Virus record (IMG/VR): IMGVR_UViG_3300042987_002468
Coordinates: 1-40,982 of that record
Length of the DNA: 40,982 nucleotides
DNA from: a virus
Reading direction: 5' to 3' (one strand)
Made by a program: the position numbers and the translations under genes. This document shows, piece by piece, positions 1 through 11,996 of this stretch (the first letter of the stretch is position 1; every line of letters starts with the position of its first letter). The notes below the pieces were generated by a model. The model was not told the origin of the DNA. It saw only the letters and a list, made by a program, of their open reading frames with translations, and ran no database searches.

Positions 1-96
1 AGACTGAAAACAATAGCGATGTGCAAACTTATCTTTGTAGCGATAAGTATCAGTGCCGATCAGATTAAGTTCAGCGAGCCCGAGAAACTTTTGCAT
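1..96 (-). CDS. hypothetical protein, C-terminus cut by window edge
   Basis: An ATG at 96 opens a frame of 32 codons that runs off the left edge. The visible peptide starts MQKFLGLAELNLIG and is rich in Tyr, Lys and Asp. It is probably the last visible gene of the mini-operon begun by the promoter near 700. No Shine-Dalgarno sequence is seen upstream. The function is unknown. Confidence 0.45.
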   Translation of the reverse strand, partial: MQKFLGLAELNLIGTDTYRYKDKFAHRYCFQS

Positions 97-139
97 GACG
101 AGAAAAAAGTGATTGTGAAAATTAAACAGTGAAGAGAAA

Positions 140-343
140 TTAAATCTTGTCTGTAACTTCGTAGTGTCGCTCAATAATCCGAGAGATCACATAATTAGTA
201 AACCCACAAGGTTCAACCTCTTCGTAATTTCTAAGCTCATTGAGCTTTCTAGCGAGTTCAACAATTTCCTCGCGAGTCATGCAATTTGCAAGATCGCTCA
301 CAAAGCAACCTGCATCGTAAATTTGATCTCGAAGTCGTGACAT
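140..343 (-). CDS. hypothetical early protein, 67 aa
   Basis: Small mixed-charge protein with a helical middle (TREEIVELARKLNELRNY). The family is not recognised. It lies 30 nt after the preceding gene. That gap holds a pyrimidine-rich leader ending CTTTCAGAAA just before the ATG, almost the same as the leader of the gene that starts at 3594. There is no Shine-Dalgarno sequence. Confidence 0.6.
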   Translation of the reverse strand: MSRLRDQIYDAGCFVSDLANCMTREEIVELARKLNELRNYEEVEPCGFTNYVISRIIERHYEVTDKI

Positions 344-373
344 TTTCTGAAAGCGAAGGAAAATTAAACAGAA

Positions 374-610
374 TCAGTTGTAAAGACTATCGACTAAATT
401 ATCGACAAGAATGTTAATTGCATAGAGCTGACGATAATCTTCGTAGTCGCCATCAATGTTTGCAGTCAAAGCATTTTTGCAAGCCTCCTGCAAATTGAAG
501 ATTGCGTCTTGAGCTTTCTGACGCGCTTGACACTTTTCAGTTCGCTCTGCAACTTTCAGCGCAGTGCGACATTCTTCAAGCACAGTAAAAACATCATTGC
601 CGTTTGACAT
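374..610 (-). CDS. hypothetical early protein, 78 aa, helical
   Basis: All-helical, acidic protein rich in Ala and Glu (for example ECRTALKVAERTEKCQARQ). It is the first gene behind the promoter at 673-702. The ATG is preceded by ATTTCAGAAA rather than a Shine-Dalgarno sequence. The family is not recognised; it is supported as a gene by the promoter, the leader and tight packing. Confidence 0.6.
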   Translation of the reverse strand: MSNGNDVFTVLEECRTALKVAERTEKCQARQKAQDAIFNLQEACKNALTANIDGDYEDYRQLYAINILVDNLVDSLYN

Positions 611-636
611 TTTCTGAAATCAAATAAAGAACAAAC

Positions 637-702
637 AGACAAGAGAAACTTTCTCTCCCTTGTCTTGCTTCTATTCTACCATACAGCAAATCTGCGTGTC
701 AA
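637..702 (-). promoter_or_regulatory. early promoter P1 with 5' leader hairpin
   Basis: Minus strand: -35 TTGACA (697-702), 18-nt spacer, -10 TAGAAT (673-678), with the A/T-rich block TAAGTTAAAGCTA just upstream of the -35. The transcript would begin near 666 and fold at once into a hairpin (637-665) with AGACAA/TTGTCT outer pairs, GAGAAA/TTTCTC inner pairs and a purine-rich GGGAGAG. It serves the genes starting at 610, 343 and 96. Confidence 0.8.
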
Positions 703-721
703 TAGCTTTAACTTATTTCTT

Positions 722-1207
722 TCACTGTAAATCACTGTATGCTGTTAATTTTTCATAGATCAATTCTTTTGTTCTCGTGTTGTAATAAAGCAGTCTCGGC
801 GCATGATGCAAGCTCCCGAGACAAACTACGCACTTAAATAAAACTTTCTCATGCTTATCAACAAAATACATACATGTAAAACTAAAGAGCTGTTGCAAAC
901 TTGCGCAGAACTCATCAACATACTCACTCAACGCAAAATAATCATACGCATCAACATTCTTAAACAAAGAACTATTCAACGCAACAACTCTTTCTAAATG
1001 CTCTCTATTTAATGCAGACGCACAAACAAAATTGTATTCATCTTCTGAGTCGTAATACTCTAAAACTAAACTGGGGAGTTTTTTATCAGCAGGCGCAAGA
1101 AATCTGACTCTTTGATTTTTATGCTTCGCTAAATACTCTTTGACAGCACGTAATCTTCTTTGCACTTCAATAGCACTGAAGAACTTTGTTGAAATTGTGC
1201 GTGCCAC
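722..1207 (-). CDS. hypothetical early protein, about 161 aa
   Basis: The best start is GTG at 1207, preceded by AGGAA at good spacing. A longer reading to 1279 would cover the hairpins of the intercistronic region. The protein starts with a basic stretch (RRLRAVKEYLAKHKNQ) and continues with aromatic, Cys-containing strands. No family is recognised. It is the last gene of the P2 mini-operon; its stop lies about 20 nt upstream of the P1 -35. Confidence 0.6.
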   Translation of the reverse strand: MARTISTKFFSAIEVQRRLRAVKEYLAKHKNQRVRFLAPADKKLPSLVLEYYDSEDEYNFVCASALNREHLERVVALNSSLFKNVDAYDYFALSEYVDEFCASLQQLFSFTCMYFVDKHEKVLFKCVVCLGSLHHAPRLLYYNTRTKELIYEKLTAYSDLQ

Positions 1208-1351
1208 AGTAATTTCCTGACCCTTGTGAATTTGCCCCGAGAAGGGGCTTGTTTGGGGCGCCGGGTACATTCCCCCCAACGCCCGAAAGAAACGCCCTTC
1301 CAGAAGCTTCCAGGGGGCTCTGAGAGAGTTGCTGAGCGCAGAACTTATCGC
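1208..1351 (-). other. structured GC-rich intercistronic region
   Basis: 144 nt without a convincing gene, more GC-rich than its surroundings. On the minus strand it starts with a 7-bp hairpin directly after the upstream stop (CTGAGCG/CGCTCAG, about 1329-1352), then a GGGCG/CGCCC hairpin and a GCCCC/GGGGC hairpin with a 5-nt loop (about 1231-1247). None has a U-tract, so these are more likely RNA-processing or stability elements than terminators. Confidence 0.5.
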
Positions 1352-1549
1352 TCAGTCGCAAACCTCCTTGATCTGAATGATTTCGTACTCATCAAAAGAA
1401 AACTGCTTTCTGAAAAATTCGATAGCATCCTCATAATCAATACAATCTTCAATTACTGTCCACCCAATCTTTCCTCGATCAGAAACTTTTTCAAACAGAA
1501 CGCGAAAGGTTTTCATCTTTGTGAATGTGTAGCGCTTCATGTTACTCAT
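1352..1549 (-). CDS. hypothetical early protein, 65 aa
   Basis: Starts at ATG 1549 with a clear AAGGAG six bases upstream, one of few early genes with a real Shine-Dalgarno. The beta-alpha pattern (KTFRVLFEKV then YEDAIEFFRKQF, then YEIIQIKEV) suggests a small alpha/beta fold resembling other phage host-interaction proteins, but the family is not recognised. Middle gene of the P2 mini-operon. Confidence 0.65.
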   Translation of the reverse strand: MSNMKRYTFTKMKTFRVLFEKVSDRGKIGWTVIEDCIDYEDAIEFFRKQFSFDEYEIIQIKEVCD

Positions 1550-1569
1550 GATAGTCTCCTTGTTAATTT

Positions 1570-1848
1570 TTATTTGAGATAAAACCCTGCAGACTCCCAG
1601 ACAACAACAGAATCGGGTGAATTAAAATCTGTCTTGATAGAAGCGTGATAGTCACCCTCAAAATCACAGAGCGGGAGATCAATTACAAGCTCACCGCAAA
1701 AATGCTCATTCACCCAGTTTATGACTTGACTCTCAAGATCGAGAATGTCGTCATCTTTCAGCTCCTTGAAAAATTCCTCCCCTGATTTGCAATCGTAGAT
1801 GTAGAGATAAGTTTCGTAGGGCGCAGGGCGATCTTCACAGGGATTCAT
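1570..1848 (-). CDS. hypothetical early protein, 92 aa
   Basis: Acidic protein (DDDILDLESQVINWVNEHF) ending in an aromatic strand. Its start overlaps the stop of the upstream gene as ATGA (1845-1848), so translation is likely coupled. No recognised domain. Confidence 0.65.
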   Translation of the reverse strand: MNPCEDRPAPYETYLYIYDCKSGEEFFKELKDDDILDLESQVINWVNEHFCGELVIDLPLCDFEGDYHASIKTDFNSPDSVVVWESAGFYLK

Positions 1849-2183
1849 TTTTTACCCTCCCATTGATTTGCAAATTCATCAGCAATAGCATCAAGGCGCG
1901 GAAATAAATCCTTTTGCGCTGAATAGTCGCACAGGATCTCAGACTTTTCATTCCCGAGAACAATGAACAAAGATACAAATCCTCCGCACTCTGGAGATTT
2001 CATGAGAACGCTGGATGCATCAACGCTGCAAACAATGTCAACTGCAGCTTTTCTTGCAGCAAGGTCGGAAATTTCGCTATCAATGCCAAACTTGTCAACT
2101 CCATCAAAAACAGAGGCGATGTAAAATCCACCCTTCTGAAATTTGTGCAGCAGCGAAGAAACTGCTTCTTCGTAATTCGCCAT
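1845..2183 (-). CDS. hypothetical early protein, 112 aa
   Basis: First gene behind promoter P2. Alternating strands and helices with Cys residues at about 52 and 65; no known motif. The leader TTTCAGGCAC precedes the ATG without a strong Shine-Dalgarno. Overlaps the next gene by 4 nt. Confidence 0.65.
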   Translation of the reverse strand: MANYEEAVSSLLHKFQKGGFYIASVFDGVDKFGIDSEISDLAARKAAVDIVCSVDASSVLMKSPECGGFVSLFIVLGNEKSEILCDYSAQKDLFPRLDAIADEFANQWEGKK

Positions 2184-2204
2184 GTGCCTGAAAAGTAAGG
2201 GGAT

Positions 2205-2266
2205 CAGCAGGAAAGATGAACCCTCCTGCTGTGTTTCTATTCTAGCAGATAACGGCTAGATGTCAA
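2205..2266 (-). promoter_or_regulatory. early promoter P2 with 5' leader hairpin
   Basis: Minus strand: -35 TTGACA (2261-2266), 16-nt spacer, -10 TAGAAT (2239-2244), upstream A/T block ending AATTAAATCTA. A perfect 8-bp hairpin CAGCAGGA/TCCTGCTG (2205-2231) sits at the start of the transcript with GGG on the 5' side of the loop. Drives the genes starting at 2183, 1848, 1549 and 1207. Confidence 0.8.
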
Positions 2267-2271
2267 TAGAT

Positions 2272-2595
2272 TTAATTTACATCTTGACCCAGATTGTTTG
2301 CAAGTGCAAATTTAACAAGTCGATCTCGATTGTCTTTATAGTCACGCGCAAGATCAGTGATTTGCGAAACTTGTTCTTCTGTCTCAACTCCTGCATCCCT
2401 GCAAACAAGACGCATGATTGAAGAAAACTCTTCTTCGTCGTTGAAAAGAATTTTGCAATAAGAGTCAAGCTCTAGAAAAAAGTCAATTTTCTCTGGTGCA
2501 ATGTGAAATGGAGGATTACAGATGTAGCCAAGATTTGCGAGACGCTCAAGAACACCGAACGCCCAGAAAATTTGCTTGTGCTTTTGCTCAGTCAT
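2272..2595 (-). CDS. hypothetical early protein, about 107 aa
   Basis: The start is placed at ATG 2595 (MTEQKHKQIFWAFG), because a longer reading to 2649 would run into the DUF2786-like gene. Helical, with Cys at intervals (CNPP, YCKIL, LVCRDAG). No family recognised. Last gene of the P3 mini-operon; its stop lies 5 nt from the P2 -35 box. Confidence 0.6.
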   Translation of the reverse strand: MTEQKHKQIFWAFGVLERLANLGYICNPPFHIAPEKIDFFLELDSYCKILFNDEEEFSSIMRLVCRDAGVETEEQVSQITDLARDYKDNRDRLVKFALANNLGQDVN

Positions 2596-2635
2596 TGTAA
2601 AAAACAGAAACGACGAAAAATGATGATTGTGAAAA

Positions 2636-3316
2636 CTACCTGCCAGCAAGATACTTCTGTTGAGAGCCTGAGGCTTGTCGATTCAGGGAAACTTCCCCGC
2701 CGACAGAACTTCCTGCTGCCGCGCCAGAACCTCTCGGGCCGACATTGTTTTTGCCGTGACGGAAACGCATGGTGCTGAGAGCTTTTTTGACAGCTTCTTT
2801 ATCTTCGTGAACTCGATTTTCTTGCTCTTTCATTTCATGCAGACGATCTGTAATTTTTAAGGCAAATGCTTTTCTAAAGTTACTTTTGAAAGAACGATCT
2901 ACTTTTTTATCATGAAGCTCGCTCATAATCTTTTCTGCTGTGTAAGCAATTTCTGCCTCACGCTCCATAACTTGCAGCAGATACTCAGAATAAATTTGCA
3001 CTTGAATCTGCTGAGCCTCGCTGCCAATAATTTTCAGCTCATGACTCCCTGCAGAGTGATAAACATAAGCTTTTGCATCATAGTAATTTGCAACTGCGTT
3101 AATTATTTGATTGTACGCATGATCTGCGCGTTTGTATTCTTTGACCGTCTCGTGCTCAATAATTGTCTCTGACGCTTGCTCAATCGTTACACCGTATTCT
3201 TTGCAGAGTTTGTCAATAAGTTTTGCAGCTGCTGCAGCCTCACCCTCAAATGAAGTTTCTTGCTGCAACTTAAGCATTGCTTGAATCTTTGCAATGATTT
3301 GCTTGCGATCAAACAT
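2636..3316 (-). CDS. DUF2786-like protein, 226 aa
   Basis: The N-terminus (about residues 5-45: IIAKIQAMLKLQQETSFEGE, then AAAKLIDKLCKEYGV) matches the pattern of DUF2786 proteins, which have a small helical N-terminal domain and occur widely in phages and bacteria; their biochemical role is not established. The rest is helical and charged, with a Gly/Ser-rich C-terminus from about residue 190. Preceded by GCAGGAAA before the ATG. Second gene of the P3 mini-operon. Confidence 0.75.
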   Translation of the reverse strand: MFDRKQIIAKIQAMLKLQQETSFEGEAAAAAKLIDKLCKEYGVTIEQASETIIEHETVKEYKRADHAYNQIINAVANYYDAKAYVYHSAGSHELKIIGSEAQQIQVQIYSEYLLQVMEREAEIAYTAEKIMSELHDKKVDRSFKSNFRKAFALKITDRLHEMKEQENRVHEDKEAVKKALSTMRFRHGKNNVGPRGSGAAAGSSVGGEVSLNRQASGSQQKYLAGR

Positions 3317-3351
3317 TTTCCTGCGTTAAAAAAGAACAGAGTGAAAAGTAA

Positions 3352-3594
3352 TCAGTGAGGAAAAGTAACGAAGACGCGAATACATTGCCCTTGCGGATCA
3401 ATGTGGAACTCATCGCCAAAGTTTGTGACGCGGCAGCGATGTCCGCTCAACCCAAGAACATTTTTGACTTTGCGGATAATTGCAAGATCCGACGCATCTT
3501 CTCGCATCCAGATCGTTAATCTATTGACCCAGGAGTAATTTGCTTCGCCACCGTAAGTATCGGTGACTTCGATGCAGACTTCGCGTTCGGGCAT
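3352..3594 (-). CDS. hypothetical early protein, 80 aa
   Basis: Beta-rich small protein (EVCIEVTDTYGGEANYSWVNRLTIW cut into strands) with a His/Cys-containing second half. First gene behind P3. Its leader, TTTTCCTTCACTTTCAGAAA, nearly repeats the leader of the gene at 343. Family not recognised. Confidence 0.6.
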   Translation of the reverse strand: MPEREVCIEVTDTYGGEANYSWVNRLTIWMREDASDLAIIRKVKNVLGLSGHRCRVTNFGDEFHIDPQGQCIRVFVTFPH

Positions 3595-3618
3595 TTTTCT
3601 GAAAGTGAAGGAAAATTA

Positions 3619-3688
3619 GAACAGAGAAAGACAAACATTCTCCCTCTGTTCATGCTTCCATTATAGCATACGCAAAATTGCGTGTCAA
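3619..3688 (-). promoter_or_regulatory. early promoter P3, perfect consensus, with 5' hairpin
   Basis: Minus strand: TTGACA (3683-3688), 17-nt spacer, TATAAT (3660-3665): both hexamers and the spacing are ideal. Upstream block AAAGTAAAACTAC. The hairpin GAACAGAG/CTCTGTTC (3619-3651) lies at the 5' end of the RNA, with GGAGA at the 5' side of its loop. The -35 overlaps the stop codon of the upstream gene. Confidence 0.85.
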
Positions 3689-4029
3689 GTAGTTTTACTT
3701 TCAAGTTCCATGATAATTTTATGACGCTTGTAAATCTTTCTAGCACTGAGCTTGCAAATGCGAATCAGCAAAGACTGACTCGGTGCAACTTTTTTCTCTC
3801 TGAAATCTTTACGAAGAAAAGAAAGAATGTTAGCAGTGCAGGTATCCCACTGGATCAAAGTTATGTCCATGAATTCATCAGGATCCTTACTCCTGATAAT
3901 TTTGTTGTAAGTAGTAGAACGTTCAATCAGCTCGATAACTTCCTCTGTGACAAACTGTTGTGCAATCTTGTCAATTTTGTCGTTAGTAGTTTTTTGATAC
4001 TCTGAGACTTGATGAATCACTTGATGCAA
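3685..4029 (-). CDS. hypothetical early protein, 114 aa
   Basis: Lys/Ile-rich, helical protein with a basic C-terminus (ICKLSARKIYKRHKIIME) that could bind nucleic acid; this is inference only. It overlaps the upstream gene by 13 nt and its stop overlaps the P3 -35 box. No family recognised. Confidence 0.6.
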   Translation of the reverse strand: MHQVIHQVSEYQKTTNDKIDKIAQQFVTEEVIELIERSTTYNKIIRSKDPDEFMDITLIQWDTCTANILSFLRKDFREKKVAPSQSLLIRICKLSARKIYKRHKIIMELESKTT

Positions 4030-4220
4030 AACAAACGCTCCCCGATAAAAGGGTCTTGGACGGTAACAATTTTAGCGCTCGGGCAATTCTCGACAGCCCG
4101 AGCATTTATTGCAGCTTGCAAAAACTTTGCACCTGTGATACCTATAGCGGCCCCGAGAAAAACTGCAGCACAGGACTGAAAAAAACCCTTGTATTTTTCG
4201 ATTGTGTGTTGAAAGCTCAT
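4017..4220 (-). CDS. small membrane protein, about 67 aa
   Basis: The start is placed at ATG 4220 (MSFQHTIEKYKGFFQ), 1 nt after the upstream stop. One hydrophobic segment (SCAAVFLGAAIGITGAKFLQ) is followed by a short soluble tail, so it is predicted to be a single-pass membrane protein with an N-terminal basic side. The role is unknown. Confidence 0.6.
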   Translation of the reverse strand: MSFQHTIEKYKGFFQSCAAVFLGAAIGITGAKFLQAAINARAVENCPSAKIVTVQDPFIGERLFCIK

Positions 4221-4221
4221 G

Positions 4222-4722
4222 TCAGCGACTAAATTCACGAATGGTTGACTTGAGTTCACTTAGCTGACTTTCTAAGCTGCGAATCTTTTTGCGTGTCTCT
4301 GTTACTTCTTCGACAGTGTAATCAATGCGGAACTTGCCTTCGATAAACTTTTCGCAATCTTCTAGTATGACATCACTGATCAACGCGACAGTAAATTCTT
4401 GCTTAACATAAGCCACGCTATGTTCTGAGATTTTATACGTCTTTTTAAGATTAGCAAAAATGCAAGAATGACCGACTGTAAAAGTTAGCACAAACCCCTG
4501 CTCATTCATCCAGTTTTGCAACTTCTGCATTTCTGCATTAACTTTTACGATCCAGCTTCTGTACGGTGTAACTTTTACTATCTTCTTGCCGATGTACGGT
4601 TTGAGAATTTTCACGAAATGCAGGCGAAGTTCATTCGCCATAACATTTACTTGATTCCTTGTCGATACATGTCGAGCAAGATTTTTTTCTTCTGTGTAAT
4701 CAGGATGCGTGCTGGAAAACAT
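4222..4722 (-). CDS. hypothetical early protein, 166 aa, coiled-coil end
   Basis: The start is taken at ATG 4722 (MFSSTHPDYTEEK), since longer readings would include promoter P4. The middle is alternating strands and helices; the last 35 residues form a likely coiled coil (TRKKIRSLESQLSELKSTI). The leader ATCACAGAAA precedes the ATG. First gene behind P4; family not recognised. Confidence 0.6.
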   Translation of the reverse strand: MFSSTHPDYTEEKNLARHVSTRNQVNVMANELRLHFVKILKPYIGKKIVKVTPYRSWIVKVNAEMQKLQNWMNEQGFVLTFTVGHSCIFANLKKTYKISEHSVAYVKQEFTVALISDVILEDCEKFIEGKFRIDYTVEEVTETRKKIRSLESQLSELKSTIREFSR

Positions 4723-4748
4723 TTTCTGTGATGAGATAAAGAACGCGA

Positions 4749-4813
4749 GCATGAACAAAGAATCTCTCCCCTGTTCATGCTTCCATTGTACTACATGCAA
4801 AGTTGCCTGTCAA
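4749..4813 (-). promoter_or_regulatory. early promoter P4 with 5' leader hairpin
   Basis: Minus strand: TTGACA (4808-4813), 17-nt spacer, TACAAT (4785-4790), upstream block TAAGTTAAAAGGG. A perfect 9-bp stem GCATGAACA/TGTTCATGC (4749-4780) with loop starting GGGGAGAG follows immediately. Confidence 0.85.
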
Positions 4814-4818
4814 CCCTT

Positions 4819-5349
4819 TTAACTTACAACTCTTTTGAAATAACCCTCCCACCAGCCTTCAGTTTCCTGCATCTGCTCAAGCATTTTATCGCAGAACAAC
4901 TTTGCTTTCTCTTCTGTAAGTTCCCTAGGGTATTGATCAAATTCATGCACCCCGTAATAATCTACGAGGGCCTTATAAGAAAATGCACGCTCAACAGGAT
5001 CAGAAGTCACGAAACCTCGCATGAGCGAGTCGTAACCTCCGCGCCCTACAAAACTTGTAATTGTCTCAAGACTTGCAAGATTGCCAAACCATTCACAAGA
5101 ATCTGTATGATACAAATTGCTGCCAATTCCTATGATTTGATTATTTTCTTTGACAAGAAAACAACGATCTAGCGTGATTTCATACAAACGATGAGTAAAT
5201 TCCGGGTTGAGCAAGCAAGGTTCAAGAATCAACAGAATAGGTGAGTAGACATTAAATTTGTCTACACAGACAAATGCACCCCCATGCTCAAAAGGATTGA
5301 TGTCATCAATGTTTTCGATGCAGTGATAACAGGGTTGAGTCGTTTTCAT
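4819..5349 (-). CDS. hypothetical early protein, 176 aa
   Basis: Contains an N-terminal CYHC pair and several more Cys residues, then a central region (FVGRGGYDSLMRGF) and an acidic, helical C-terminus. Metal binding is possible but not demonstrated by a known motif. Overlaps the upstream stop as ATGA (5346-5349). Last gene of the P5 mini-operon. Confidence 0.65.
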   Translation of the reverse strand: MKTTQPCYHCIENIDDINPFEHGGAFVCVDKFNVYSPILLILEPCLLNPEFTHRLYEITLDRCFLVKENNQIIGIGSNLYHTDSCEWFGNLASLETITSFVGRGGYDSLMRGFVTSDPVERAFSYKALVDYYGVHEFDQYPRELTEEKAKLFCDKMLEQMQETEGWWEGYFKRVVS

Positions 5350-5612
5350 TTGATGCGCTCCTGAAATTCTTTGGTGTACGAAAAGTGCTCGATCTCTACA
5401 TCTTGATGATTCAGAAGCAATTGATCGAGAATGAATCCTGCAGTAGATTCCTCTACGTTTTTGACTTCCTGTTCAAGTTTTCCCCTGCGTGTTGTTTTGC
5501 GCAGTGTGAAAGGTGTCGGGCCGGGCAGATTAGAAAACGTGTCTCGCGTAAATGTGTACACAAGTTTCTCTTGTTCAGAGAATGTTGTAAATTTGTAGAC
5601 CTTGTTAATCAT
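5346..5612 (-). CDS. hypothetical early protein, 88 aa
   Basis: Strand-rich N-terminus (NKVYKFTTFSEQEKLVYTFT) and a helical end. Coupled to both neighbours by 4-nt ATGA overlaps. No family recognised. Confidence 0.65.
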   Translation of the reverse strand: MINKVYKFTTFSEQEKLVYTFTRDTFSNLPGPTPFTLRKTTRRGKLEQEVKNVEESTAGFILDQLLLNHQDVEIEHFSYTKEFQERIK

Positions 5613-5830
5613 TGTGCTTTGTCAGAATAAATGACAGCGTTGTTTTCAATGCAGCACTCAGGAATTGCCGTGCGAAACTTAAAGTCGATAAACGGCCTGA
5701 GCATGTTTGACGGGCAAGTAAGTTTCAGCATGAAACGAATTGCGTCGTGCGATGAAGCTGTTTTAACGTAAACAGTTTTTACGTCTGACCAGTCAGCATT
5801 TTCCGTCGTTGCAAACTCGTAAAAATTCAT
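5609..5830 (-). CDS. hypothetical early protein, 73 aa
   Basis: First gene behind P5. It begins MNFYEFATTENADWSDVKTV, followed by a segment ASSHDAIRFMLKLT typical of small alpha/beta host-interaction proteins; no specific family. Ends with an ATGA overlap to the next gene. Confidence 0.6.
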   Translation of the reverse strand: MNFYEFATTENADWSDVKTVYVKTASSHDAIRFMLKLTCPSNMLRPFIDFKFRTAIPECCIENNAVIYSDKAQ

Positions 5831-5861
5831 AATTTCCGTGATGATCAGAAAGAATCGACAG

Positions 5862-5924
5862 AGACAGCAAGAGATTTCTCCCCTACTGTCTTTCTATTCT
5901 AAGACATCATGCGCTACGTGTCAA
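5862..5924 (-). promoter_or_regulatory. early promoter P5 with 5' leader hairpin
   Basis: Minus strand: TTGACA (5919-5924), 17-nt spacer, TAGAAT (5896-5901), upstream block TAAGTAAAAACAC. Hairpin AGACAG/CTGTCT with inner GAGA/TCTC (5862-5891) and GGGGAG on the 5' side. Confidence 0.8.
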
Positions 5925-5941
5925 GTGTTTTTACTTATCAG

Positions 5942-6256
5942 TTAATTCACAATTTCTCCGTTTGCATTAACTCGCACACCCTCTGTAAATTCTGCGCCGT
6001 TACGCAAATACCAAACACCTTTTTCCTGATACACAGAAGTAAATGAATAGCTATCAATACGTTTTTTAGTCGTTACCGTTTTGTATCCTCCCGAGAAGAG
6101 AACTTGTGTGTTGTCGGGATAAATTTTGATAATGTCAGTATTATACAGACGAACAACAAAAACCTCATCAACTTGCTCAAGATAAGTGTTGTTGTCAATC
6201 TTACGCTTTTGGCGACCGTTGAGAAGTTCGGCGGCTTTTTTGCAATCAATAGTCAT
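5942..6256 (-). CDS. conserved phage/mobile-element protein, 104 aa
   Basis: Reads as a common but uncharacterised phage protein pattern: LNGRQKRKIDNNTYLE, then VVRLYNTDIIKIYPDN, then SGGYKTVTTKKRIDSY. The even strand spacing suggests an all-beta fold. I recall this pattern from many phages and plasmids, without a known biochemical role. Overlaps the upstream gene by 11 nt; last gene of the P6 mini-operon. Confidence 0.75.
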   Translation of the reverse strand: MTIDCKKAAELLNGRQKRKIDNNTYLEQVDEVFVVRLYNTDIIKIYPDNTQVLFSGGYKTVTTKKRIDSYSFTSVYQEKGVWYLRNGAEFTEGVRVNANGEIVN

Positions 6257-6458
6257 AGTTCTCGTAAAGGTTGTAGTTGAAAAGAAGATCGTTTAGTTTT
6301 CGTGCTGTATCTTTTTCTCTGTCAAGCAATGCCCAGAATTGCTTTCCTTTTTCTCCCCTGTCAATTACAATCGACGTTTTTGTTTCATACAGCAAACGCT
6401 TGAAACGTTGCTGCGAACAAGAAAGAGCGTTCGCCACCCAAGAATGATCTGTTTTCAT
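6246..6458 (-). CDS. hypothetical early protein, 70 aa
   Basis: The start is chosen at ATG 6458 because it overlaps the upstream stop as ATGA (6455-6458). The segment HSWVANALSCSQQRFKRLL resembles a helix-turn-helix, so a DNA-binding role is possible; the rest is charged. No family recognised. Confidence 0.55.
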   Translation of the reverse strand: MKTDHSWVANALSCSQQRFKRLLYETKTSIVIDRGEKGKQFWALLDREKDTARKLNDLLFNYNLYENYDY

Positions 6459-6637
6459 TTTTGCATAAACCAAGAACAAAGGTAGACATCTTCTATGGTC
6501 TCAGCTTCTCTTTTTTTGCGCATGGCAATAGTTGTTGCTTCGCTCAGACTTTGCGCCTCAATGTAGATTCCGCGCCCAATGACGAAATCTTTTTCTTCGA
6601 GATAGCGATAGTCTACGCGATACATTTTTACTGACAT
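6455..6637 (-). CDS. hypothetical early protein, about 60 aa
   Basis: The start is placed at ATG 6637 (MSVKMYRVDYRYLEEK), downstream of the leader hairpin; ATG 6625 is an alternative. Pattern: strand, acidic turn, then SLSEATTIAMRKKREAET helix and a final strand. Small alpha/beta fold, unknown role. First gene behind P6. Confidence 0.55.
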   Translation of the reverse strand: MSVKMYRVDYRYLEEKDFVIGRGIYIEAQSLSEATTIAMRKKREAETIEDVYLCSWFMQK

Positions 6638-6659
6638 GAGAAAAAAGAGCGCTGCACAC

Positions 6660-6718
6660 GACAAAGACTAGCGCCTTTGTCATGCTTCCATTATAGAGCA
6701 CGCAACGTTGAGTGTCAA
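6660..6718 (-). promoter_or_regulatory. early promoter P6, perfect consensus, with 5' hairpin
   Basis: Minus strand: TTGACA (6713-6718), 17-nt spacer, TATAAT (6690-6695), upstream block TAAGTAAAAATAC. The hairpin GACAAAG/CTTTGTC (6660-6681) has an 8-nt loop. The sequence around the -10 also matches P3 (GGAAGCATG just after it). Confidence 0.85.
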
Positions 6719-6742
6719 GTATTTTTACTTACAAGTTTACAA

Positions 6743-7000
6743 TTACTTTTTAGTCGATTTGCCATTTGCACCATTACGCGCTCTATTTTTGCTGCGTGAT
6801 TCAAGTGTCGTTCCCCCGTTTTTTGTATGCGATACATCCTTTCCGCCTTTCCCATAAATCCCACGCTCCCTCCTTTCTTTGTTGAGTTCAGCACGATACT
6901 TTTTGTTTTCAGGTTTTGCGTTCAGCTTTTTTTGATACGCATTGCGTTTGGCGCGAGCTTTTGGGTTCTTTTTGTAGTAGACAGAAGTTTTGCTCGCCAT
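6743..7000 (-). CDS. small basic conserved phage protein, 85 aa
   Basis: Strongly basic protein: YYKKNPKARAKRNAYQKK, then RAELNKERRERGIYGKGGKD, then VSHTKNGG and a C-terminal RNGANGKSTKK. I recognise this pattern from cyanophages and other large phages, where it is annotated as hypothetical. The charge suggests nucleic-acid binding (inference). Its stop is 24 nt from the P6 -35. Confidence 0.75.
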   Translation of the reverse strand: MASKTSVYYKKNPKARAKRNAYQKKLNAKPENKKYRAELNKERRERGIYGKGGKDVSHTKNGGTTLESRSKNRARNGANGKSTKK

Positions 7001-7025
7001 GACAAAAGCGCATCATGAAAACAGA

Positions 7026-7298
7026 TTAGCGCTGACGAAAAGAACGAGGAATGCTAACAGGTATGCGAGATTCGCAAGAATCACAGTGCAGAAACTTATC
7101 TGATCTATTCAATCCATCTGCAACAATCTCCCATGGATCGCTAAGAGCGAATCTTTCACGAAAAACAGAACAGCACTTAGAGCAGCAAATAAAATTGCCC
7201 TTTGTCACAACGTATCTAGACCGAAAGTGATTGTGATTATTCTTGAAAGTAATAGCAAGAAGATCAGCTGTGCGCAGTGAGTAGCTTTTTGACGACAT
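7026..7298 (-). CDS. putative zinc-binding protein, 90 aa
   Basis: Two CxxC pairs (CSKCCS at about 40 and CDSC at about 73) separated by 30 residues form a likely zinc ribbon. Basic C-terminus. It starts the two-gene unit with the 85-aa basic protein. Function unknown. Confidence 0.65.
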   Translation of the reverse strand: MSSKSYSLRTADLLAITFKNNHNHFRSRYVVTKGNFICCSKCCSVFRERFALSDPWEIVADGLNRSDKFLHCDSCESRIPVSIPRSFRQR

Positions 7299-7314
7299 AG
7301 AAAAAATGACTCTG

Positions 7315-7345
7315 AGTATAGATACCTAGCCTCTGTAAGCCTCTG
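7315..7345 (-). promoter_or_regulatory. candidate atypical promoter with direct repeats
   Basis: Minus strand: -10-like TATACT (7315-7320) without a TTGACA at the right distance. Instead the direct repeat AGCCTCTG occurs twice (7328-7335 and 7338-7345, + strand) exactly 10 bp apart, covering the place of the -35. This could be an activator-dependent promoter for the genes starting at 7298 and 7000. Confidence 0.35.
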
Positions 7346-7391
7346 CAGAGCCCGATAAGGCCTGCTACCTGGGCAAGCTAGAGAGCAGGAA

Positions 7392-7423
7392 GAAAAGGCC
7401 CCACAGGGGCAAATCTGCGGGGC
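7392..7423 (-). terminator. likely rho-independent terminator
   Basis: Minus strand hairpin GCCCCGCAG/CTGTGGGGC (one G-U pair, 8-nt loop, 7398-7423) followed by CTTTTC. It lies 11 nt after the stop of the 61-aa gene at 7434 and would end the P7 operon. Confidence 0.65.
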
Positions 7424-7433
7424 TGAGAGAGCT

Positions 7434-7619
7434 TTAGTGGTCGAGTTGCGACCTGATTCGCTTGTGCAGATCCTTATAGATCACTCGCGCTTCCTTCCAG
7501 GCTGCGTCATTTTCCTCTTTTGTCCCATTCTTGAGAAGAGAAACAAAATGCTCCCCAAAGTTGTGCATAAATGAAATTGCACCAAGGAGAGCAAGTTTCT
7601 CTTTTTTACTGAGTGACAT
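7434..7619 (-). CDS. hypothetical early protein, 61 aa
   Basis: Helical protein, Lys/Asp rich (NGTKEENDAAWKEARVIYKD). Its start touches the upstream stop by one base. Last gene of the P7 operon, followed by a terminator-like hairpin. Confidence 0.6.
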   Translation of the reverse strand: MSLSKKEKLALLGAISFMHNFGEHFVSLLKNGTKEENDAAWKEARVIYKDLHKRIRSQLDH

Positions 7620-7945
7620 TAAGTGAATTCCTGCATACGTGAAAGATTATCTTTTATGTCATTCGCTCTTGCTTCTGCAACAAGATGACAAGCAGCAATA
7701 ATTTGTTCTTTTGTAAATTTACTAACGACTTCTATGTTTTTTGGAAAAAAATCATGGAAGCTTTCATCACACTGTTCTAACGCTGCTGCAAGAAGACCTA
7801 TGCCTAAAAACATTAACTCTGTCTCAAATACATAAGCAAGAATACACTCTTGATAACTTGGGGGATCATCGCATTCTTTTGTTTTGATTGAATTCTTAAA
7901 CTTCTTGTACGCAAGAGTGATTGTATTAAAGTCTTGTGAATTCAT
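7619..7945 (-). CDS. hypothetical early protein, 108 aa
   Basis: The start is placed at ATG 7945, which overlaps the upstream stop as ATGA. Helical, with a hydrophobic stretch FLGIGLLAAALEQC near residue 45 too short and too polar at its edges for a sure membrane helix. Family not recognised. Confidence 0.6.
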   Translation of the reverse strand: MNSQDFNTITLAYKKFKNSIKTKECDDPPSYQECILAYVFETELMFLGIGLLAAALEQCDESFHDFFPKNIEVVSKFTKEQIIAACHLVAEARANDIKDNLSRMQEFT

Positions 7946-8241
7946 TTGCGCAGCTCCTGTTTCTGCGCCCATGCCGCACTGTGCATTTCTGCAGCAGTTA
8001 TCGGAGGCTCATAACTAAAGCCCATTTCGTCATCACTGGGCTCCCAGTCAATGTGCTCTGTAATCAATCTGATTACCTCTTCAAGCATTTCTTCACGCCC
8101 AGGCACGGAATGCATCACCTGAACTCTTTGTTCTCGCTTGAGGATTGCTTGAAGCTCATCACGAATAAGTTCAAGCCTCGTGTCATCATAAACGTGAGGA
8201 GCGTAATCTTTGTTTGAGGAAAAGGTGAGAGTTGCTTTCAT
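7942..8241 (-). CDS. hypothetical early protein, 99 aa
   Basis: N-terminal strand, then long amphipathic helices (TRLELIRDELQAILKREQRV and EEMLEEVIRLITEHID). No recognised domain. Coupled downstream by ATGA. Confidence 0.6.
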   Translation of the reverse strand: MKATLTFSSNKDYAPHVYDDTRLELIRDELQAILKREQRVQVMHSVPGREEMLEEVIRLITEHIDWEPSDDEMGFSYEPPITAAEMHSAAWAQKQELRK

Positions 8242-8252
8242 TGTTCTAGAGA

Positions 8253-8513
8253 TCAGGAGACAACAAACATGCCGTCTTCGTAAAGACGCTTTGCCCTTGC
8301 AAGTGCGAGATTTCTAAATTTATAGCTATAGGCAATGTCAAGCAGGGGCTCATGAGCAAAATAAGAGTCAGCCTCTTCTTTGCTAAGGGGATTTTTCTTC
8401 TCCGGTGTAAGATACCTTCCGTCTGAAAACTTTTGATAAATGCACCAACGATCGTCGTGCAGATGAACAAACTCTGCGCTTTTTCCTGTTGTGTAAGTTT
8501 GATTTGTGCTCAT
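8253..8513 (-). CDS. hypothetical early protein, 86 aa
   Basis: Strand-rich N-terminus (SAEFVHLHDDRWCIYQKF) and helical C-terminus. Its start touches the stop of the acidic protein upstream by one base. Unknown function. Confidence 0.6.
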   Translation of the reverse strand: MSTNQTYTTGKSAEFVHLHDDRWCIYQKFSDGRYLTPEKKNPLSKEEADSYFAHEPLLDIAYSYKFRNLALARAKRLYEDGMFVVS

Positions 8514-8896
8514 TAGTCTAGATCGGTTTCGTGGTCAATAAGTTGACGCATCAGGCAAAGATCGCCGTTGTCGTCACTTTGCTCAAGGAAATACTTGTAT
8601 GTATTTCCGCACCCTTCATAGCTAAGGTAATTCCAGTTGTCAAGTACCTCGCTCCATGCATCGTAATAATCATAATTTTCTTCATCAGATTTGGCGTCAG
8701 AATTTGGTCCGCGCCAGCAACGTTCCCAGGCGTATTCAGAAACATCCCCAAGTCGTTCATGCTTTTGCACAAACATTTGAGGAATAAAAATCCCGAAAGA
8801 TCCGTTGATCAGAACTTCATCCACTTGCGTGAAATCTTCGGGTTCATCAGGCGGGGAAAGTGGGCGCGGATCAATAATCGGAGTGTCGTAATTCAT
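8513..8896 (-). CDS. conserved phage protein, acidic, 127 aa
   Basis: Acidic protein with the pattern INGSFGIFIPQMF (about residues 30-42) followed by a Tyr/Asp-rich block (ENYDYYDAWSEVLDNW). I recall this pattern from uncharacterised phage and plasmid proteins. Its low pI would fit DNA mimicry, but that is speculation. Confidence 0.65.
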   Translation of the reverse strand: MNYDTPIIDPRPLSPPDEPEDFTQVDEVLINGSFGIFIPQMFVQKHERLGDVSEYAWERCWRGPNSDAKSDEENYDYYDAWSEVLDNWNYLSYEGCGNTYKYFLEQSDDNGDLCLMRQLIDHETDLD

Positions 8897-8897
8897 G

Positions 8898-9086
8898 TCA
8901 ATTCTTGTTGAATTCGTTCAGATACTTTTCCACGATCTCAGGAAAAGCAACGCACAAGCGCTGAAAGTTAGCGGGATCTGCTGCAATCATTGCCAGCGCA
9001 AGAGCATTGACAAACCTTCCACCGAATCGCTGCATGTTTACCAGCAGCCGAGACTTTTGCTCTGCTGTCAAATTAACTTGATTCAT
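8898..9086 (-). CDS. conserved small phage protein, 62 aa
   Basis: Start at ATG 9086; a longer reading to 9164 would cover the promoter. Pattern LTAEQKSRLLVNMQRFGGRF, then ADPANFQRLCVAFPEIVEKY, which recurs in uncharacterised phage proteins. The leader TTTCTCAGAAAAC precedes the ATG. First gene behind P7. Confidence 0.65.
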   Translation of the reverse strand: MNQVNLTAEQKSRLLVNMQRFGGRFVNALALAMIAADPANFQRLCVAFPEIVEKYLNEFNKN

Positions 9087-9111
9087 GTTTTCTGAGAAAG
9101 AAAGTGAAGAG

Positions 9112-9164
9112 ACGAGCGCCTTGCCCGTTTTTCCATCATAAGACCGAGGCGGCCTGTCTGTCAA
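9112..9164 (-). promoter_or_regulatory. early promoter P7 with short 5' hairpin
   Basis: Minus strand: TTGACA (9159-9164), 18-nt spacer, TATGAT (9135-9140), upstream block TAAATAAAAACAC. The leader hairpin ACGGGC/GCTCGT (9112-9128, one G-U pair) is shorter than in P1-P6. It drives six genes down to 7434. Confidence 0.75.
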
Positions 9165-9177
9165 GTGTTTTTATTTA

Positions 9178-9588
9178 TCAATACAGGTAGACTTTTCCGT
9201 CGTCGGCAACATAAGCATTGATCTCGCCAAAAGATCTAGCGATGTCATTAAGTATCCCAGATACAGCGGGGCACCAGTCTCCGTCCCAAAATCCGGCGCC
9301 TTCCTGATTTCTCGTCAAAACAAAATCGTGCTCCGTTTGATTTTCTATGGGCTGAATAACATCATAAAATTCGTCGATAGAATCCCAGTTATCACCAACA
9401 GCCTCAGTGATTCGTTTTTCAGCCTTTGAGACAAAACCCATAAACTCCTTATAGAGTTTGTTCAAGCAATCTTCATTGATGTCCTCCGCTGAATAGTTTT
9501 TGTAAAGCGGAATTTCTTCATCATCTGAACTTGTCCACAGAATTGTTTCAGCAAGTGCGCGGATGGTTGGGTTCACAGAAGTAAACAT
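9178..9588 (-). CDS. conserved phage protein, about 136 aa
   Basis: The start is ATG 9588, with GAGGTG three bases upstream as Shine-Dalgarno. Pattern: ALAETILWTSSDDEE at the N-terminus, then DFVLTRNQEGAGFWDGDW, then an end resembling YVADDGKVYLY. This arrangement is common in uncharacterised phage proteins. Last gene of the P8 operon. Confidence 0.75.
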   Translation of the reverse strand: MFTSVNPTIRALAETILWTSSDDEEIPLYKNYSAEDINEDCLNKLYKEFMGFVSKAEKRITEAVGDNWDSIDEFYDVIQPIENQTEHDFVLTRNQEGAGFWDGDWCPAVSGILNDIARSFGEINAYVADDGKVYLY

Positions 9589-9599
9589 AATCACCTCTT

Positions 9600-9920
9600 T
9601 CAATTTATCGAACTTGATTGAGCTTGATCATTCTCAAGAATTTTTTCAAGAGTGATAGGAAGCATGTCGCTGTCAACCCCCTCGGAAAGCATGATTTTTT
9701 CACGCAGTCCCTGAATAGCAGAAACATGCTGCGCAAGCATGTCTGCTTTTACTGCAAGCGCCATCCAAATTGAATCAGATTGCCAAGGAACAAGAAAAGA
9801 AGCAATTTGTGCTTTTACCTTTTCTCTTTTGAGAATGTTGACACAATCCTGAACCTGCAAATTCAGCCCATGAAGCATCATGCAGAGTTCTTCGATGTAA
9901 AGCTCAGACTTCAGTTTCAT
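9600..9920 (-). CDS. hypothetical early protein, 106 aa
   Basis: All-helical, with heptad-like spacing (IEELCMMLHGLNLQVQDCVN). Two bases from the upstream gene. No recognised domain. Confidence 0.6.
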   Translation of the reverse strand: MKLKSELYIEELCMMLHGLNLQVQDCVNILKREKVKAQIASFLVPWQSDSIWMALAVKADMLAQHVSAIQGLREKIMLSEGVDSDMLPITLEKILENDQAQSSSIN

Positions 9921-9921
9921 T

Positions 9922-10383
9922 TCAGGTCAGGAAAAGGTTTGCCTTGCCACAGAAAACAAGATCCATGACAGAGTGAAAGTCAGTAGGAACAACAGAATAA
10001 TCGTAGTTACCGAAGCCCTTAGAAATGTAATAAAAGCTACTTGTAGCTCTTGCGATTTTGTTCTGAACATTTCCAAGTGAATCTTCTTTGGCGAAACGAA
10101 GCAGGTGAACCTCGACAGCGGAGAAAGAATAATTTAATTCATTTAGAACATAGTGCTCCGACAGCTTGCAGTAGAGGGGAAGGAGAACGCTTCCAAATTC
10201 ATAGATAATCCATAATCTAACTTCGCCCGGCAGCATTTTATCCAAGATTTTTTTATCATGAATAGCAATGTCTGTCCAGTTATGCTTAACCGTATTTTCC
10301 GCCTCAAAACACATCCATTCATGGAGTGTTTGCTTTTTAGGGGAACGTTTTACTGTTTCCTGCCTTGAGATAATTTGAGACAT
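9922..10383 (-). CDS. hypothetical early protein, 153 aa
   Basis: Basic N-terminus (RQETVKRSPKKQTLHEW), then helical body with aromatic residues. First gene behind P8, with only about 20 nt of leader and no hairpin. Family not recognised. Confidence 0.6.
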   Translation of the reverse strand: MSQIISRQETVKRSPKKQTLHEWMCFEAENTVKHNWTDIAIHDKKILDKMLPGEVRLWIIYEFGSVLLPLYCKLSEHYVLNELNYSFSAVEVHLLRFAKEDSLGNVQNKIARATSSFYYISKGFGNYDYSVVPTDFHSVMDLVFCGKANLFLT

Positions 10384-10404
10384 AGGTGCGCCGAACGCTC
10401 TTAC

Positions 10405-10432
10405 ACAATAGCAGGCGGCGCTGCCCTGTCAA
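10405..10432 (-). promoter_or_regulatory. early promoter P8, weaker -10, no leader hairpin
   Basis: Minus strand: TTGACA (10427-10432) with the same upstream block (TAAATAAAAGCAC) as the other early promoters. The best -10 is TATTGT (10405-10410) at 16 nt. The leader to the gene at 10383 is very short and lacks the hairpin. Confidence 0.6.
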
Positions 10433-10453
10433 GTGCTTTTATTTACAAAGTTA

Positions 10454-10999
10454 CTAGAAAAGCTCAAAACTAAGATCAGGGTAGATCCTTTTGTTCATTA
10501 GACGCGGCAGGATCTTTCTGATTTCTGCATAAGGCAGGAATGGTTCAGTTCTTACAAATCCACCGGCAGAATAAGGACAAACCCAAACAGCAACATTGTT
10601 TGCAACATATATTAACGGGTATTCACTTGCGCTTCCGATCCAAATACATCCTTCGTCTATTGGTTGATGCGAATTGAATCTTGTTCTAACAAAAGGAAAA
10701 AATGCTCCTTCTGCCGATGCAAACTTATCAACATTAAAATATTCGCCCCCCCAGGCACGCTGATAAAGATCCAAATACTTTTCAGTAAACTCGTATTGAG
10801 ATAAATACTTCTTGATGCAGTTTCTCTCTAAATCGAGTTGAGACTCATAAATTTTCTTGATTCTTAAGCTGTATTTCTTTTTGCATGTAAGAGACTCTCT
10901 ACAAAGGGCGAATCTTTTCTTCGTTTGTGCCTCTGTAAATAGCAGCGTCCCAGTCTCTGAAAATTTGAAGTGTAACTTCTGATTGCGTTTTTGATTCAT
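10454..10999 (-). CDS. hypothetical protein, about 181 aa
   Basis: Start uncertain: ATG 10999 (MNQKRNQKLHFKF) is used here; the frame is open to 11038. Basic N-terminal half (KKRFALCRESLTCKKKYSLR) and a strand-rich C-terminal half with WVCPYSAGGF. It overlaps the end of the upstream gene by about 100 nt, unusual for this tightly but neatly packed region; a frameshift joining the two frames is possible. Confidence 0.5.
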   Translation of the reverse strand: MNQKRNQKLHFKFSETGTLLFTEAQTKKRFALCRESLTCKKKYSLRIKKIYESQLDLERNCIKKYLSQYEFTEKYLDLYQRAWGGEYFNVDKFASAEGAFFPFVRTRFNSHQPIDEGCIWIGSASEYPLIYVANNVAVWVCPYSAGGFVRTEPFLPYAEIRKILPRLMNKRIYPDLSFELF

Positions 11000-11967: not shown

Positions 11968-11996
11968 TTGACAGGCATCGTTGATGACCTTACACT
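11968..11996 (+). promoter_or_regulatory. plus-strand sigma-70-type promoter
   Basis: TTGACA (11968-11973), 17-nt spacer, TACACT (11991-11996). It lies in the 52-nt gap before the gene at 12012, which has AGGGG as Shine-Dalgarno. The A/T-rich block of the minus-strand promoters is absent. Confidence 0.65.

Follow-up and report, generated by a model that had tools for sequence, protein, structure and literature searches.

Hairpins of free sequence at the predicted 5' ends of early transcripts in a lineage of probable cyanophages: a candidate means of mRNA protection

What does an inverted repeat do that stands at the start of one predicted transcript after another, each time with a different sequence? 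The question is raised by a viral contig from IMG/VR (IMGVR_UViG_3300042987_002468), all 40,982 bases of which were analysed and are called the window here. Its first 10 kb carries seven near-consensus TTGACA / TANNNT promoters of the sigma-70 type on the minus strand, P1 to P7 (Table 1), driving what we take to be the early operons. A preliminary description had placed an inverted repeat at the 5' end of each predicted transcript; all seven pairs of arms proved correct, and each directly follows its promoter.

The repeat begins 7-9 nt past the -10 hexamer, or a few bases earlier where the stem reaches upstream of the predicted transcription start (+1). The whole window was listed for strong perfect hairpins (stem of at least 9 bp, at most -11 kcal/mol) in a search blind to promoters. 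In the first 12 kb, counting either strand, there are seven: the P1-P6 leaders account for six, and the remaining one is terminator-like (7398-7423). A perfect stem of at least 9 bp beginning 6-9 nt after the -10 was present at 6 of the 10 TTGACA promoters of the window, against 0.78% of random positions (P = 5e-11). A transcription start that is not downstream of the hairpins, as the preliminary description supposed, is also favoured, judged from promoter position only.

Almost nothing among the window's own proteins was matched in IMG/VR. A search with the promoter and leader pattern recovered an overlapping relative, L057, which carries an eighth hairpin of its own; its terminase gave 39 related loci, and the gene family downstream of a further promoter, P8, gave 20. 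Early regions were taken from these loci, and the counts below cover 20 contigs. A single terminal hairpin, called by a fixed folding rule in a 46-nt folding window, was found at 89 of 113 distinct early-strand TTGACA promoters, compared with 13.6% of random positions; the nominal P of 5e-55 overstates the evidence because the sequences are related. None of 13 opposite-strand promoters had one. Under the stricter rule (perfect stem of at least 9 bp, fixed start), 29 of 55 promoters in seven contigs were positive versus 0.78% (nominal P = 2e-46, again for related sequences that are not independent). The frequency of stems has a sharp maximum at the predicted start. Of the 89 hairpins, 63 have +1 as their first paired base, 12 have +2, 13 have +3 and 1 has +4. 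In all 89 leaders the +1 base is A or G, as expected of a transcription start.

The claim that pairing is kept while sequence changes holds in these relatives, whose orthologous leaders show compensatory changes. The P7 stem is short, and different stems stand before the orthologous gene in five further phages, the six pairs of arms being ACGGGC/GCTCGT, AGCAGC/GCTGCT, AGAGCGGC/GTCGCTCT, GTACAGC/GCTGTGC, GTACAGC/GCTGTAC and CGCTCG/CGAGCG. Another orthologous set comprises 12 leaders (8 distinct); 7 of 7 pairs are kept in all 12, with all 56 cells paired, and two base pairs show double compensatory changes, a level reached by 3 of 500 shuffles. Among eleven close leader pairs, in a comparison that treated 44 of the 46 leaders of the first seven contigs as true leaders, 13 of 16 altered base pairs are still paired. 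Insertions inside the structure also seem to be tolerated, since the hairpins at L172 11604 (+) and L179 13042 (+) are longer, with an extra inner stem, and keep their outer pairs. Overall, the 89 hairpins have a median stem of 12 bp and loops mostly of 4-6 nt; in the 46 leaders stems do not exceed 19 bp, which is short for RNase III.

Twenty-four of the 113 promoters lack a hairpin, and 14 of these are P8, an early promoter of the P1-P7 series that was absent from the preliminary list. The other ten comprise weak promoter-like sites elsewhere, two hairpins that exceed the 46-nt folding window and a few short or imperfect stems. At P8 a terminal hairpin was absent in 14 of 14 contigs where the promoter was found, and the leader is 15-31 nt long where it could be read. 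Its 153-amino-acid protein is conserved in relatives (52-64% identity); it matched no family of known function, only a PHROG of unknown function, and its AlphaFold model is poor (pLDDT 52). A rightward promoter near 11968 (+) likewise has no terminal hairpin; it is conserved, with a very short leader (also L004 3824 (-), L171 12881 (+)). The rule in these predicted transcripts is thus a hairpin at +1 where the leader is long, and no hairpin where it is short. At the conserved rightward promoter, some relatives have their first ATG about 5 nt past the predicted start, which would make the mRNA nearly leaderless. In L013, a seemingly unrelated phage contig with many consensus promoters, an ATG lies at or beside the predicted +1 (4030, 6806, 7771 and 9738, all +); these genes are probably read from leaderless mRNAs, and leaderless genes such as those of L013 account for part of the chance matches in the first pattern scan.

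Table 1. Predicted promoters and 5'-terminal hairpins of the window; stem lengths are counted from the predicted +1 (RNAfold)
Feature	Coordinates	Strand	Stem (bp)	Details
P1 promoter	673..702	-		-35 TTGACA 702-697, -10 TAGAAT 678-673
P1 5'-terminal hairpin	637..665	-	12	AGACAAGGGAGA-GAAAG-TTTCTCTTGTCT; predicted +1 666; ATG 610, 26 nt downstream
P2 promoter	2239..2266	-		
P2 hairpin	2205..2231	-	11	CAGCAGGAGGG-TTCAT-CTTTCCTGCTG; +1 2232; ATG 2183
P3 promoter	3660..3688	-		consensus, 12/12
P3 hairpin	3619..3651	-	13	GAACAGAGGGAGA-ATGTTTG-TCTTTCTCTGTTC; +1 3653; ATG 3594
P4 promoter	4785..4813	-		
P4 hairpin	4748..4781	-	12	15 bp as inverted repeat, counting 3 nt before +1; predicted +1 4778; ATG 4722
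P5 promoter	5896..5924	-		
P5 hairpin	5862..5891	-	11	ACAGTAGGGGA-GAAA-TCTCTTGCTGT; 13 bp counting bases before +1; +1 5889; ATG 5830
P6 promoter	6690..6718	-		consensus, 12/12
P6 hairpin	6656..6685	-	9	GACAAAGGC-GCTA-GTCTTTGTC, core 6660-6681; 13 bp counting bases before +1; +1 6683; ATG 6637
P7 promoter	9135..9164	-		
P7 hairpin	9112..9128	-	6	ACGGGC-AAGGC-GCTCGT; begins at +1
P8 promoter	10405..10432	-		15-nt leader, no terminal hairpin; drives gene 9922-10383 (153 aa)

The promoters themselves share further features. An A/T-rich, AAGTWAAA-like stretch lies 4 nt ahead of each -35 from P1 to P7 (for example 6723-6732), and resembles an UP element. Promoter spacers often hold an inverted repeat with half-sites that differ between promoters, such as CGCAATTTTGCG (3671-3682), CACGTA-N6-TACGTG and ACCACT-N3-AGTGGT (L167, L189). 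These are possible operators; with all promoters pooled, spacer dyads show a weak excess, at one centre.

The window belongs to a siphovirus, judged by its J-like tail protein, and its genes include those for a DnaB helicase, ThyX, a sigma factor and two tRNAs. The best matches of the J protein include Prochlorococcus phages MED4-184 and MED4-117 (about 32%), and the L057 terminase shares 40% identity with its counterpart in Synechococcus phage KBS-S-2A. As the nearest isolated relatives by sequence point to cyanophages, the host is probably a cyanobacterium, but no match to a photosynthesis gene or to NblA was found in the nine records searched. Relatives of the terminase, sought as a host clue in prophage or genome contigs, were not found. 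Among isolated phages, the P8 gene and two other early genes had no match, and the P3 gene matched only phages of other hosts. The left end of the window (1-600) is colinear with L057 9537-10179, the end of a relative that carries a terminase and a portal-like gene, so the genome represented here is probably incomplete.

Among the functions that the preliminary description had offered, protection of the 5' end is now the best supported, and we consider it the probable one: a 5'-terminal stem-loop that, independently of its sequence, blocks 5'-end-dependent decay, like the leaders of ompA and T7 gene 10. Both traits of leaders of that kind are found here, in that pairing rather than sequence is conserved in orthologous leaders and the stem begins within about 0-3 nt of the predicted 5' end. 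The mRNA of each early operon would open with a hairpin that has its first pair no more than 3 nt from the transcription start and acts via its shape rather than its sequence. Such a paired end would withhold a single-stranded end from the 5' sensor of RNase E and from the 5'-3' exonuclease RNase J, and the early mRNAs made by the host machinery would persist with a longer half-life. The short P8 leader could not accommodate a hairpin; there, the ribosome itself would cover the 5' end. Pairing of the 5' end impedes enzymes that initiate decay there, namely RNase E and the pyrophosphohydrolase in E. coli and RNase J in Bacillus, and a 5' hairpin stabilises bla mRNA (PMC3997798); both RNase E and RNase J are present in cyanobacteria (PMC10989914). 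Protection of ompA and T7 gene 10 mRNA by 5' stem-loops is described as 'sequence independent' (PMC2254391), which fits the free-sequence hairpins seen here.

Several points weigh against this interpretation. No close RppH homologue is known in cyanobacteria (PMC10989914), which makes it uncertain which decay step would be blocked, and for some mRNAs, which are degraded through direct entry, a 5' hairpin brings no benefit (PMC3997798). RNase E could cleave the U-rich linker between hairpin and start codon itself. In four distantly related isolated cyanophages the hairpin is absent or represented by one weak candidate at most, so that such protection is not general in cyanophages; as far as seen, the hairpin set would belong to one phage lineage. 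A model based purely on shape also leaves the composition of the stem unexplained: from the seventh pair inwards the 5' arm is 89% purine, and G·U pairs with the G on the 5' side make up 26%, against 0.4% for the reverse U-G (126 versus 2). Finally, the case for 5'-end protection is drawn from sequence and from predicted RNA ends.

A reading that we regard as unlikely, though it is compatible with the linker, is that the hairpin is a translation element, which stops the 5' part of the leader from pairing with a U-rich standby or S1-dependent site, the gain being in ribosome loading and not in mRNA lifetime. The distance from hairpin end to ATG is indeed steady, with a median of 25 nt (10-90%: 20-34) over the 46 leaders that come from the first seven contigs. 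In composition the linker is 45% U and 10% G; the first 13 nt are rich in U and the rest in A, up to starts that resemble CAGAAAATG. Of the 46 leaders, 1 has a Shine-Dalgarno-like sequence. Leftward early genes of the window (343, 610, 3594 and 4722) share a recurring start context, TTTCAGAAAATG, also without a Shine-Dalgarno sequence. Translation of cyanobacterial rbcS reportedly requires S1 and not the Shine-Dalgarno sequence, according to the title of a 2006 paper by Mutsuda and Sugiura that is cited in PMC6847405. Linker openness exceeds that of coding sequence (0.57 versus 0.44), but this follows from composition alone, since a shuffled linker gives 0.58. Moreover, a standby hairpin need not start at +1, yet the +1 register is the sharpest feature of the set. 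The U-rich stretch may still serve as the ribosome standby site envisaged in the preliminary description within the protective reading: a hairpin ending about 25 nt before the start codon would lie just behind the initiating ribosome, the linker lacking a Shine-Dalgarno sequence may be where the ribosome lands, and with hairpin and ribosome in place little of the leader would be left free.

The one-sided composition of the upper stem suggests a second possibility, that the purine-rich 5' arm (GAGAGA) facing a U/C-rich 3' arm is the binding site of a phage or host protein through which the early operons are co-regulated. GAGA is present in 49 of the 89 hairpins, and a bound protein would account for the purine:pyrimidine bias. 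Nevertheless there is no invariant motif, GAGA being absent from hairpins such as those with CAGCAGGAGGG, ACGGGC or ACCGCTC, and the loops differ in both length and sequence; binding of this kind is in our view improbable. A version in which the G-U-bearing upper stem is a recognised element that sets all early operons jointly, with the hairpin-free P8 gene as an exempt master regulator, appears scarcely less doubtful. The preliminary description had pointed to a GGGAGA-like run at the start of the loop in P1, P3, P4 and P5 and, as one option, to a GGA-binding regulator such as CsrA. In fact most of the run belongs to the 5' arm and pairs, often by G-U, with UUUCUC-like pyrimidines, the actual loops being GAAAG (P1), AUGUUUG (P3), GAGA (P4) and GAAA (P5). 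GGGAG occurs in 18 of the 89 hairpins, mostly paired, and relatives have GAGAGA in its place. Regulation of the CsrA/RsmA type is unlikely because 2 of the 89 hairpins have GGA wholly within the loop and 6 have it no more than one base away.

A promoter-proximal attenuator is highly improbable. Here the hairpin and a U-rich tract would stop transcription near +40 except in the presence of an antiterminator, which might be encoded by the gene behind P8, the one early promoter that is consistently hairpin-free. Across all leaders there are on average 5 T in the first 8 nt past the stem, and 17 of 89 pass an intrinsic-terminator score, weakly or at the borderline. However, none of the seven window leaders passes: they score -25 to -68, far under the threshold, against +4 to +47 for terminator-like sites in other parts of the phage. 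The window tracts have 2-5 T of 8, and the P8 protein is poorly modelled and lacks a family of known function.

Other identities could be set aside. Hairpin promoters of the N4 type sit upstream of +1 and act as promoters; those described here follow a sigma-70-type promoter and extend from +1. A DNA operator is unlikely because the arms have no common sequence, and a leaderless start at the ATG that opens some stems does not apply to the several stems without ATG. T4 RegB targets GGAG motifs in the translation initiation region, where GGA must be unpaired (PMC3014915), and GGGAG, where present here, is mostly paired and at the 5' end rather than at the start codon. No Rfam family, including PhotoRC, wcaG and manA, was matched; the window gave only its two tRNAs, and 1-10500 gave nothing at E up to 1.

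How do these leaders compare with known systems? The closest parallel is the phi10 leader of T7 gene 10, also a phage mRNA leader with a stem-loop, which begins GGGAGA. Its stem-loop (8 bp, 21-bp phi10 promoter fragment) gives more stable mRNA and higher expression in unrelated hosts (PMC2254391, PMC6146998). T7, however, transcribes with an RNA polymerase of its own and has a single conserved sequence as well as a Shine-Dalgarno sequence, whereas here the promoters are of the sigma-70 type, the stems are unrelated and a Shine-Dalgarno sequence is lacking. The ompA 5' untranslated region of E. coli and engineered bla and papA hairpins share the position at the 5' end and the sequence-independent effect (PMC3997798, PMC2254391), but belong to single host genes, unlike a set that recurs at almost all early operons of a viral lineage. 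In Bacillus subtilis, an RNase J host, the aprE and glpD leaders stabilise long downstream regions through a 5' hairpin, a ribosome binding site or a bound protein (PMC3997798); they differ in working with ribosome binding sites or bound proteins, and in a Gram-positive host. The PhotoRC-II, manA and wcaG structures of Rfam likewise come from cyanobacterial phages, some in possible 5' untranslated regions (PMC2864571), but they are either defined motifs or candidate riboswitches, and they accompany metabolic or photosynthesis genes. Searches of the openly available literature gave no prior description of such a hairpin set in a phage.

The principle of protection by a 5' hairpin is thus already known, and what is new is its systematic use at nearly every early operon, with free sequence and in a fixed register. 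Stabilising 5' hairpins have hitherto been known from single genes and vectors; here they appear to stand lineage-wide at the first base of almost every predicted early mRNA. The roughly ninety natural variants, which lie under strong promoters and include a built-in exception, make the rules of 5' protection, such as stem length, free 5' bases, G·U content and distance to the ATG, directly testable. The probable setting is the cyanobacteria, where 5'-end decay is poorly known and where these hairpins would be ready parts for gene expression.

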